32,965 nt of DNA. Source: a virus. Shown piece after piece: positions 19,246 to 27,732 of this stretch. A program made the position numbers and the translations under genes. Location: the IMG/VR virus record IMGVR_UViG_3300047667_000273, positions 1 to 32,965 of that record, one strand, 5' to 3'. Below the pieces are notes generated by a model that saw only the letters and a program-made list of their open reading frames with translations, was not told where the DNA came from and did no database searches. Numbering within the stretch: the first letter of the stretch is position 1; every line of letters starts with the position of its first letter.

Positions 19246-19510
19246 TTCTTACCTCGCGTTCTTCAGAGATTTCTTTACGTTTAACAGTATAAGACTTTGC
19301 CAAAGACTTTTCGTAATCAAGGAAAGCTCTCTTAGCTCTTAGTAGGGAGGAGTACACACCAGACAACTCTTCAGGTAGTGGCCCCTTATCCAGTCTAAAC
19401 ACAAACTGTGAGTATCCTGTTTTATTTCTCTCTACGTAGTAAGTCGCTAGTCGTTTAGGTGTAGACATAACAAGCATTTGCTTGTCGGAAAGTTCTTTAA
19501 CTTCTACCAT
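19217..19510 (-). CDS. 97-aa unknown protein between tail tubular genes
   Basis: 97 residues, basic and helical, with Lys/Arg/Glu-rich ends and a middle containing Ala-Thr-Tyr-Tyr-Val-Glu-Arg and Phe-Val-Phe-Arg-Leu. The start overlaps the 3' end of the tail tubular A gene by 14 bp, and the 3' end overlaps the tail tubular B start by 29 bp. Overlap on both sides suggests coupled translation within the tail operon. A tail assembly or chaperone role is only a guess from position. Confidence 0.6.
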   Translation of the reverse strand: MVEVKELSDKQMLVMSTPKRLATYYVERNKTGYSQFVFRLDKGPLPEELSGVYSSLLRAKRAFLDYEKSLAKSYTVKRKEISEEREVRNAKVRPEST

Positions 19511-20231
19511 AGTTTCTTCCTACAGGACTTTTCTTAGTACGGTGTAGATCGTTCTGGATGTAGTTCTTCTGTCTCCTAGCTGCTTGCTCAACCTTTTGGT
19601 CAGGCCCACCTTTGAAGATAGAGAAGGCACGAGACTTAGCTTCGTTAACTAGGTAAGGAAACATGGTAGCGTCTAGGTCAGGCACGTAGCTGTCTGAAAG
19701 GGAGAATATAGGGTGTGTAACACCAATAGCTCTAACCTTGGCTTCAGTTAAGGTGGTGTCAACAGTGCTATCAAAGGAGTTCATAACAATGTACTGGTCG
19801 TCAAAGGATGTGTACAGAGTAGGTAGTTTGTTATTTGTGATACGGAGCTTAGTGCCAGCAGTCTTGTCGTTTACAAGAGTGTAGTTACCACCAACACTGT
19901 CAACTAGCTTTAAGAAGGCTTCTGGATCACACCAATCAATAAGACCATATTTGTAAGAGGAGTCTAAACTCTGGTCATACCAGACAGTAGAAATAACCTT
20001 AACATTAGTTGGGTACTGAAAGTGTGTAGGAAATAAAGTGTCACTAAGAGCAGTAAGCTTAATCAAGCTCTGGTGCTCAGGGATAAGTCTTGTTGCTGTA
20101 ATGTCGTAGAATGTTTGTTCTACAATGCGGGCAATCTGTAGTGCTTCTACACTAGCAGAAAGAGTAGATACATCCTCTGAGTCTAGGTCAGACAAGATAT
20201 CTTTAACAATAGCTATTAAGGTCTTTTTCAT
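19497..20231 (-). CDS. Tail tubular protein A (head-tail adaptor, T7 gp11-like)
   Basis: 244 residues. The N-terminal region is helical with Ala-Leu-Gln-Ile-Ala-Arg-Ile-Val-Glu-Gln-x3-Asp, then Pro-Glu-His-Gln near residue 52, followed by Leu-Phe-Pro-Thr-x-Phe. This is the pattern of podovirus tail tubular A/adaptor proteins, where an AxxIxxxxxxA helix pair is followed by H/F-containing strands. Its length is close to T7 gp11 (196) plus a modest insertion. It sits upstream of the tail nozzle gene and downstream of head genes, as expected for the ring that joins portal and nozzle. Start overlaps the preceding stop by one base. Confidence 0.75.
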   Translation of the reverse strand: MKKTLIAIVKDILSDLDSEDVSTLSASVEALQIARIVEQTFYDITATRLIPEHQSLIKLTALSDTLFPTHFQYPTNVKVISTVWYDQSLDSSYKYGLIDWCDPEAFLKLVDSVGGNYTLVNDKTAGTKLRITNNKLPTLYTSFDDQYIVMNSFDSTVDTTLTEAKVRAIGVTHPIFSLSDSYVPDLDATMFPYLVNEAKSRAFSIFKGGPDQKVEQAARRQKNYIQNDLHRTKKSPVGRNYGRS

Positions 20232-20860
20232 TACAAGTAAACCGGGTTAAGGGGTACTGTACGGATATACCAACCATTTATAACAACAGTGTCTCCAGTA
20301 GTAGTACTACTAAGAGTAAACTCAGCAGGATTATCTAAAGTAATTGTATCACCCATGTAAACACTAAAATGGTGTGTAAACTGAAATGTGCCCACAGGAA
20401 CACTTGTTGACCGGGCAACTTTAAGGGTGTAAGCACCTGCGTCACCAATGCCTAGGTTCATCTTTAGTGCAAACTGTCCGTCACCAGCGTTGTTAGCAAC
20501 ATCAAAGTCAATTCTAAAGTCAACAGTGTCTCCTACTAAACAACCAGAACCACCAAAATCAAACCTACTGGTAGACGTATTCCAAATTGCTGTTCTTCCG
20601 GGTAGCCTATACGTTGAATTAGTATTTGAGCCTAAACCGTTGTTAGTTAGTACGTAGTCTGTGTCTGCTAGGGTTAACGCAATAGGTGCACTTGCAGTAG
20701 CAGTGTCATTTACATCTTCCCAACCTTGTGTAAAAGCTTTTTTAAATGAACCTGAACCAGCACCATTAGAAACAAATACTTTGTTAACTGCCGCAGCAGC
20801 AGCACCCTTAGGCTCATGGAGGTAAGGGTCTGTCAGGACACTGTGATTAATATTAGCTAT
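20231..20860 (-). CDS. Virion structural protein with apparent AUA start codon
   Basis: A standard ATG gives only 76 residues from 20461, but the frame is open much further upstream. It reaches an ATA codon at 20860-20858 placed 7 bp after AGGAGGG (20874-20868), a near-perfect Shine-Dalgarno. Reading from there gives 209 residues beginning [Met]-Ala-Asn-Ile-Asn-His-Ser, then Leu-Thr-Asp-Pro-x-Leu-His-Glu-Pro-Lys-Gly. I recall marine phage structural proteins that begin Met-Ala-x-[Ile/Val]-Asn-His-Ser with this same block. No ATG, GTG or TTG lies in frame near this point, and the region up to the stop TAG just upstream holds no other start. The protein is beta-rich and probably a head or head-fibre component. 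It is the first gene after a strong promoter. Confidence 0.7.
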   Translation of the reverse strand: MANINHSVLTDPYLHEPKGAAAAAVNKVFVSNGAGSGSFKKAFTQGWEDVNDTATASAPIALTLADTDYVLTNNGLGSNTNSTYRLPGRTAIWNTSTSRFDFGGSGCLVGDTVDFRIDFDVANNAGDGQFALKMNLGIGDAGAYTLKVARSTSVPVGTFQFTHHFSVYMGDTITLDNPAEFTLSSTTTGDTVVINGWYIRTVPLNPVYL

Positions 20861-20928
20861 TGGTCTGCCCTCCTAAGGCGTGTGCTAGGGTACTGTTAGT
20901 AGTTATACCTTTGGAAGACTACAAGTCT

Positions 20929-20957
20929 ATTATACACTATAACTAACCTATTGTCAA
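20929..20957 (-). promoter_or_regulatory. Perfect-consensus sigma70 promoter for the tail/ejection operon
   Basis: On the minus strand TTGACA (20957-20952) is followed after exactly 17 bp by TATAAT (20934-20929), a full match to both consensus hexamers. Transcription would start near 20922 and read the AUA-start structural gene, the tail genes, the ejection proteins and the spanins. It lies directly after a hairpin terminator that ends the capsid transcript. Confidence 0.85.
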
Positions 20958-20967
20958 TAGTAAAGAT

Positions 20968-20991
20968 GGGGAGGCCCGTAAAGACCTCCCC
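20968..20991 (-). terminator. Hairpin terminator after the decoration gene
   Basis: GGGGAGG (20968-20974) and CCTCCCC (20985-20991) form a perfect 7-bp stem with a 10-nt loop, seven bases after the decoration gene stop. On the minus strand the stem is followed by ATCTTTACT, a weak U-tract. It may therefore only attenuate, giving more head than tail transcript before the new promoter at 20929-20957. Confidence 0.65.
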
Positions 20992-26787: not shown

Positions 26788-27732
26788 TTATCCGCCAAAC
26801 TCTAGAACATAAACAACACCAGATTTACCAGAACCCCCTTGATAGGTGACATCCGGACCATTAACCCCCCTGCCCCCGCCGCTGCCGTAACCTGCACCGG
26901 GTCCACCGTTTCCTTCTTTGGGATTTCCACCACCGCCGCCCCAAAACGAACCAGAATCACCCCCGCCCGATATGTTTATGTCTCCGCCAGACGCGGAACG
27001 GTTAGCACCAGTCGAATTCTGACCACCTGTCGCAGTCAACGTGGTTGTTCCGGCGCTGAAAGAACTTGTGCCGCCAACAGCACCGCTGAAACCGCCGTTC
27101 CCACCTGATCCAACGACAATTGTGGCCGTGGTTATAGCCGCGAACGCTGCCCCTGTGATTAGCTTAATGGCAGTCGCACCTGCGCCGCCTGTAGCGGTAT
27201 TACTGTTGCCTCCACCAGCACCGCCGCCCGTGACAAACACCCAAGCCGAAACTGCGCCAGTGGTTGGCGTGTAAGTCCCGGACGCCGTAAACACTTGAAC
27301 TGCAAAAGGTGCCGTACTTACTGCAAGAGCAGCAATAGCTGCGGATACATTAGCTGGAGATGGGACACCCGGTGTAGTAGCTGTACCTGCCTCCCAAGCT
27401 GCTGTAAGGTGTGCTTCCCCTGTGTCAAGAAGGTTTAACTCTGCGGCGTTAGAAGTAACACCGTCAAGGATATTGAGTTCAGCAGCAGTGGAAGTAACAC
27501 CGTCAAGAATATTGAGTTCAGCAGTACTAGAAGTAACACCGTCAAGGATATTGAGTTCAGCAGTACTAGAAGTAATATCTGTTACGTCAGCAGTAACAAG
27601 ACCGGACTTAACAAAGGCCTTAATCTGAGCACCAGTTACCTTCTTTGAAGTACCAGCCTCATTGATTTCAAATTCATTAGCCGCAGCAGCAGCAGAAGCT
27701 GCCGTAAGCTCTGAGAGTTTTACATTTGCCAT
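26788..27732 (-). CDS. Tail-fibre-like protein with 13-aa repeats and glycine-rich tip
   Basis: 314 residues. The N-terminal 50 residues (Lys-Leu-Ser-Glu-Leu-Thr, then Ala/Asn-rich) resemble marine phage fibre starts. Residues about 55-100 are three near-identical 13-residue units (Ser-Ser-Thr-Ala-Glu-Leu-Asn-Ile-Leu-Asp-Gly-Val-Thr) plus a diverged fourth unit. The C-terminal half is dominated by Gly (Gly-Gly-Gly runs, Ser/Asn spacing), much like the glycine-rich receptor-binding tips of some phage adhesins. The DNA of the Gly-rich half is clearly more GC-rich than the 5' part. It follows two other fibre-type genes and precedes terL. Receptor binding is the likely role. Confidence 0.7.
   Translation of the reverse strand: MANVKLSELTAASAAAAANEFEINEAGTSKKVTGAQIKAFVKSGLVTADVTDITSSTAELNILDGVTSSTAELNILDGVTSTAAELNILDGVTSNAAELNLLDTGEAHLTAAWEAGTATTPGVPSPANVSAAIAALAVSTAPFAVQVFTASGTYTPTTGAVSAWVFVTGGGAGGGNSNTATGGAGATAIKLITGAAFAAITTATIVVGSGGNGGFSGAVGGTSSFSAGTTTLTATGGQNSTGANRSASGGDINISGGGDSGSFWGGGGGNPKEGNGGPGAGYGSGGGRGVNGPDVTYQGGSGKSGVVYVLEFGG
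27422..27568 (-). repeat. Tandem 39-bp coding repeats
   Basis: Three 39-bp units (27452-27490, 27491-27529, 27530-27568) differ at only a few positions. A diverged fourth copy lies at about 27422-27451. They encode the 13-aa Thr-Ala-Glu-Leu-Asn-Ile-Leu-Asp-Gly-Val-Thr unit in the fibre gene. Near identity in DNA suggests recent slippage or unequal recombination, and copy number may vary between isolates. Confidence 0.9.

Follow-up and report, generated by a model that had tools for sequence, protein, structure and literature searches.

The window, that is, the whole stretch of 32,965 nucleotides of IMG/VR virus record IMGVR_UViG_3300047667_000273 that was analysed here, carries a major capsid gene (PHROG 267), an uncharacterised open reading frame of 161 amino acids, a gene opening with an ATA codon and a tail protein gene (PHROG 7592), in this order. 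The features in and around the ATA gene are as follows:

20968..20991, minus strand: terminator-like hairpin, preceding the promoter and parting the ATA gene from the capsid-side gene upstream
20929..20957, minus strand: sigma-70 promoter TTGACA-17-TATAAT, 12 of 12 consensus matches
20861..20884, minus strand: 24-nt segment CACACGCCTTAGGAGGGCAGACCA, similar to the 3' end of an HNH insertion in relatives (e.g. TGCCAGAGGAGGGGCTAGACCC); likely scar
20868..20874, minus strand: Shine-Dalgarno (SD) sequence AGGAGGG, 7-nt spacer to the ATA, duplex with the anti-SD of -10.7 kcal/mol
20858..20860, minus strand: probable ATA start codon, in the place of the ATG of relatives
20231..20860, minus strand: predicted virion-protein gene, SIO1 gp29-like, 209 codons from ATA to TAA, read from the ATA
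20459..20461, minus strand: ATG at codon 134, the first canonical start in frame and the one that gene callers pick
20233-20231, minus strand: stop codon TAA of the ATA gene
19497..20231, minus strand: downstream tail protein gene (PHROG 7592), its ATG overlapping the preceding stop

The overlap of this stop with the ATG of the next tail gene has the form TAATG (20231-20233), and through translational coupling a weak start of the ATA gene may also affect the tail protein. Elsewhere in the window, the gene at 26788-27732 contains an internal repeat of two neighbouring 74-nt segments (27424-27497 and 27502-27575) that are 82% identical.

A preliminary description of this DNA had let the 209-codon frame open at ATA, 7 nt after AGGAGGG and directly downstream of a perfect promoter, and the minus-strand sequence bears this out, with the -35 hexamer beginning at 20957 and the -10 hexamer ending at 20929. 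The in-frame codons around the start read TAG GAG GGC AGA CCA ATA GCT, and neither ATG nor GTG nor TTG occurs between the preceding in-frame TAG and codon 134, so that callers limited to these three codons reduce the protein to 76 residues, as had also been claimed. Two features of a near-cognate (AUN) gene are found in the window, a strong SD at the usual spacing and a conserved N-terminus without a canonical start.

Read from the ATA, the protein begins (I/M)ANINHSVLTDPYLHEPKG and thereby has the MANxNHSxLTDPYLHEPKG-type N-terminus of SIO1 gp29-like virion genes. The start of marine phage relatives given in the preliminary description, Met-Ala-Asn-Ile-Asn-His-Ser...Leu-Thr-Asp-Pro, proved correct: MAN[VI]NHSxLTDPYLHEPKG is present in dozens of loci. 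The gene also lies between the major capsid gene and the gene for tail tubular protein A, with the 161-amino-acid frame as an extra on the capsid side. In Zobellviridae the same place is taken by gene 42 of Lentibacter phage ICBM2 (between capsid and tubular protein A), by gp29 of Roseophage SIO1 and by the corresponding genes of two oyster-associated phages. From position and N-terminal motif, we predict that the ATA gene encodes a virion protein and belongs to a Zobellviridae-like podovirus. Its relatives are annotated as hypothetical protein, tail fiber or putative head fiber, and PHROGs assign no function to the family; gene position is what makes the label 'structural' probable for its product. 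While the window gene shares both its post-capsid position and its N-terminal motif with SIO1 gp29 and ICBM2 gene 42 (Zobellviridae, Cobavirinae), the annotated start of the latter two is at the family's ATG, where the window has ATA. In the SIO1 record (L302:442-2157), a feature 'gp29.1' begins at the position of the capsid gene and reaches into gp29; it may stem from an early annotation of a fusion product.

Relatives of the ATA gene were drawn from IMG/VR, 80 loci being fetched by protein and further ones by a degenerate pattern of the N-terminus; none were found among genome contigs. Aligned at this locus, as the preliminary description had suggested, the ATG of relatives stands exactly at the position of the window's ATA. 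Among 128 distinct loci the start codon is ATG in 121, ATC in four, TTG in two and ATA in one, the last being a twin contig (L001/L084) that differs from the window by one mismatch in 13,970 nt. One of the TTG relatives (L010:3001) has a fairly strong SD (-8.5) and no HNH gene that we could find upstream. The window is a metagenomic contig, and a true ATG might have been lost in sequencing or assembly, as the preliminary description had considered. However, the twin contig agrees on the ATA, being a separate assembly, though possibly of the same population or sample, and four other contigs have ATC at the same codon, which makes such an error very improbable.

The region ahead of the internal ATG behaves as ordinary coding sequence, since codons 21-133 are about as identical to full-length relatives as codons 134-209, and codons 1-20 are even more so (45-85% identity over the N-terminal 20 residues). 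A conserved N-terminus is also seen behind ATC: between the two loci that share an ATC scar described below (L026 and L088), codons 2-40 differ mostly by silent changes (dN 0.11, dS 0.72), which, unless recombination moved the scar at a later time, supports that the N-terminus has continued to be translated from ATC. These data bear on the possibility that the gene is being lost, with ATA as a loss-of-start mutation and either the 76-residue protein from the ATG at 20461 or nothing being made. AUA is indeed a poor start codon, and RpoS is reduced where the rpoS start of E. coli has naturally changed from ATG to ATA (PMC12864459). Yet the frame is intact over 209 codons, with its N-terminal 133 residues conserved like the remainder, the SD is properly spaced for the ATA while 20461 has no SD-type support, no relative starts at the position of 20461, and the ATC relatives retain purifying selection on the N-terminus. 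We therefore regard gene loss as improbable; if the full-length protein is made instead, the peptide ANINHSVLTDPYLHEPK should be present in virions.

The SD of the window is exceptional within the family. In the 118 ATG loci with enough leader, the energy of the anti-SD duplex averages -6.7 kcal/mol and ranges from -4.8 to -9.3, compared to -10.7 in the window and -12.1 to -12.5 in the four ATC loci, so that all five ATA/ATC loci surpass every single ATG locus. Because their leaders are related and the scar is shared, the ATC loci do not count as four independent draws. The SD strength is consistent with functional use of a weak codon. In L026 and L088, direct reading of the sequence shows the same promoter hexamers with a 17-nt spacer. 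The overall fold of the leader is no more stable than that of shuffled sequences; a leader segment GTCTTCCAAAGG can pair with CCTTAGGAGGGC (20908-20919 with 20868-20879), and transcripts starting at the local promoter would then have their SD masked. Two other routes to the N-terminus were rejected: initiation at the ATT of codon 4, for which the SD distance would be 16 nt, and a group I intron splicing an upstream ATG to codon 2, for which leaders of about 60-70 nt (window) and about 40 nt (L088) are too short.

A possible origin of the non-ATG starts emerges from those relatives in which an HNH endonuclease gene occupies the start site. Complete HNH genes lie between the leader and the virion gene in L085 and L086, both ATC loci, and in L159, a TTG locus. 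In all three, the HNH gene starts at the native ATG of the virion gene, with the native SD, and the virion gene behind it has a new ribosome binding site and ATC or TTG, followed by GCN AAY GTN AAY. From the native ATG the HNH proteins open with MANV or MA, the MANV of L085 and L159 copying the first residues of the virion protein. L086 and the HNH-less L094 have a 45-nt leader in common, and the leader of L159 is similar to that of L075, which is likewise HNH-less. At the protein level, the HNH products of L085 and L086 are only about half identical, yet both genes end in AAGGAGGGGCT[GA]GTCCC-ATC-GC. The third ATC locus, L026, retains a 33-codon HNH remnant, MLKVCRLCKEETAH joined to DNMSKGNKMPEEGLDPSQM, and in the fourth, L088, this scar is all that is left of the HNH gene. 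Complete, remnant and absent states of the site thus all occur among relatives, and upstream of the virion gene an HNH match is found in none of the 118 ATG loci. The HNH proteins carry a catalytic-type DHI.P..N motif and have PHROG 1035, endonuclease VII, as their best PHROG; on this basis we consider them putative site-specific homing endonucleases.

The overlap of the HNH frame with the virion start in L026 and L086 raises the possibility that the N-terminus is supplied by frameshifting or stop readthrough from an upstream frame, or by a recoded stop. In the window, however, the upstream frame contains several stops and no canonical start, even if readthrough of the TAG is allowed. The virion gene shares its frame with the HNH stop TAA in L085 but not with the HNH gene in L086, so that no single recoding event fits both. 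We give this explanation hardly any weight.

In the window itself no HNH coding remnant is found, and the case for a scar is made by the 24 nt ahead of the ATA. Aligned to the ATC leaders (TGCCAGAGGAGGGGCTAGACCC versus CGCCTTAGGAGGG-C-AGACCA), this segment scores 11, compared to at most 6 for 62 distinct ATG leaders. Shuffles that keep AGGAGG reach a score of 11 in 0.26% of cases (p = 0.0026), for a match of 24 nt that is partly the SD itself; the spacer alone gives p of about 0.02. From this resemblance, the 24 nt likely represent an HNH insertion scar, short of proof. If so, the HNH gene of close relatives could end in AGGAGGGCAGACCAATAG or AGGAGGGCAGACC-AATAGC upstream of the virion gene.

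The main competitor is a plain ATG-to-ATA point mutation behind an ordinary leader that never hosted an HNH gene, the weak start being served by a pre-existing SD. It needs only one transition, CCTTAGGAG is found in ATG relatives too (e.g. L044), and it agrees with the missing HNH remnant. Put forward as an alternative in the preliminary description, this bare mutation is possible, but it leaves unexplained both an SD that exceeds those of all 118 ATG relatives and a spacer with upstream bases closer to the HNH-linked ATC scar than those of any ATG leader. We therefore rate it as unlikely, though as a more serious contender than gene loss. AUA initiation, which the preliminary description had proposed, is supported as the best reading of the sequence, and it is probable, in our view, that the strong SD offsets an AUA start and that the non-AUG start is most likely an HNH-insertion scar, the two taken together. 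That translation does begin at the AUA, how strongly the gene is expressed, and that the window's scar descends from an HNH gene are what we infer.

According to this joint reading, an HNH gene would have inserted right behind the ATG of the virion gene and taken over its native SD and ATG. For its own translation the virion gene would then depend on an AUH codon and on an SD newly provided by the HNH 3' end; the HNH gene would later have been lost, while the scar stayed. The AUA would be read by initiator tRNA(fMet), presumably yielding an N-terminal Met, with the strong SD AGGAGGG making up for the weak codon. Initiator tRNA can read AUA, AUC and AUU by a third-position mismatch; IF3 lowers such reading, and a strong SD aids it. 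For infC, ccpN and citZ of S. aureus, initiation at AUA with an extended SD has been shown, and in this species AUA/AUU starts with an extended or strong SD gave about 10-30% of AUG output (PMC13009471), so that the ATA gene, too, could be attenuated. E. coli infC and pcnB, cited in the same paper, are AUU-initiated. As read here, the window gene would resemble the S. aureus genes in combining a near-cognate AUN codon with the normal initiator tRNA and a strong or extended SD (PMC13009471). Those genes, however, are cellular, mostly regulatory or metabolic, and conserve their near-cognate start, whereas the window gene is a predicted phage virion gene with ATG relatives and an apparent HNH link.

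A second gene family is found behind related HNH genes. Several of 80 loci drawn for such HNH genes contain an unrelated downstream gene starting x-I-Y-R-G-x-G-G, with ATG in L249, L257 and L286, TTG in L238 and L259, ATT in L241 and L245, and ATA in L210, L256 and L272. Its near-cognate starts are located as follows:

L210:2015-2020, L256:5176-5181 and L272:3013-3018: ATA starts of x-I-Y-R-G-P-G-G genes, with a common GGTAGGGTAAAAYC leader
L241:2990 and L245:1014: ATT starts of the same family, each immediately preceded by an HNH gene that ends in a TAG in frame with the ATT

An HNH gene lies directly upstream in L210, L241, L245 and L272; L256 shares the GGTAGGGTAAAAYC-ATA leader but has no HNH gene directly before the x-I-Y-R-G-P-G-G gene. 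Neither the 833-codon frame of L210 nor the 391-codon frame of L245 has an ATG, GTG or TTG before codon 300, and none occurs in L241 within the 287 codons covered. A tblastn search with the alanine-rich xIYRG N-terminus gave no matches, probably due to low-complexity filtering. The SD energies of this family, -7.3 to -9.8, are not unusually strong, indicating that compensation by a strong SD is not universal.

Free-standing homing endonucleases of phages are described (PMC2988022, PMC6083498, PMC13405050) as optional insertions beside conserved phage genes, with loss and degeneration in a cycle. The HNH genes of the relatives resemble the T4 seg/mob genes, F-CphI and HNH/Endo VII-like genes (PHROG 1035) in being optional insertions adjoining a conserved phage gene. 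The described genes lie between genes, however, while the HNH genes seen here take the target's own SD and ATG, leaving it with a near-cognate start. Near-cognate starts and free-standing homing endonucleases are each known; their link is apparently new, as we found no precedent among the openly available papers searched on homing endonucleases and start codons.

It is conceivable, though tentative, that the 3' end of this HNH type acts as a portable ribosome binding site with a near-cognate AUH start, serving both rescue and immunity, and that the window keeps this scar after HNH loss. An AUH codon would revive the host gene yet leave the ATG-containing homing site unrestored, and would so achieve rescue and immunity to re-cleavage in one. 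We can only guess that the non-ATG codon was also selected for, an ATG being liable to recreate the homing site; if so, the HNH enzyme should cut only the ATG allele of the empty site (ATGGCTAAC versus ATCGCTAAC).

For genome annotation, the finding means that callers restricted to ATG, GTG and TTG truncate or lose conserved virion proteins, calling 76 of 209 residues in the window, and would miss about 300 N-terminal codons in two other contigs (L210 and L245). For the phages themselves, the reading would provide a concrete origin for the very rare AUA, AUC and AUU starts: the canonical start is lost to a selfish gene, and a near-cognate codon together with a stronger SD keeps the host gene going. 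The rewiring of the translation of essential phage genes by mobile endonucleases would become testable.
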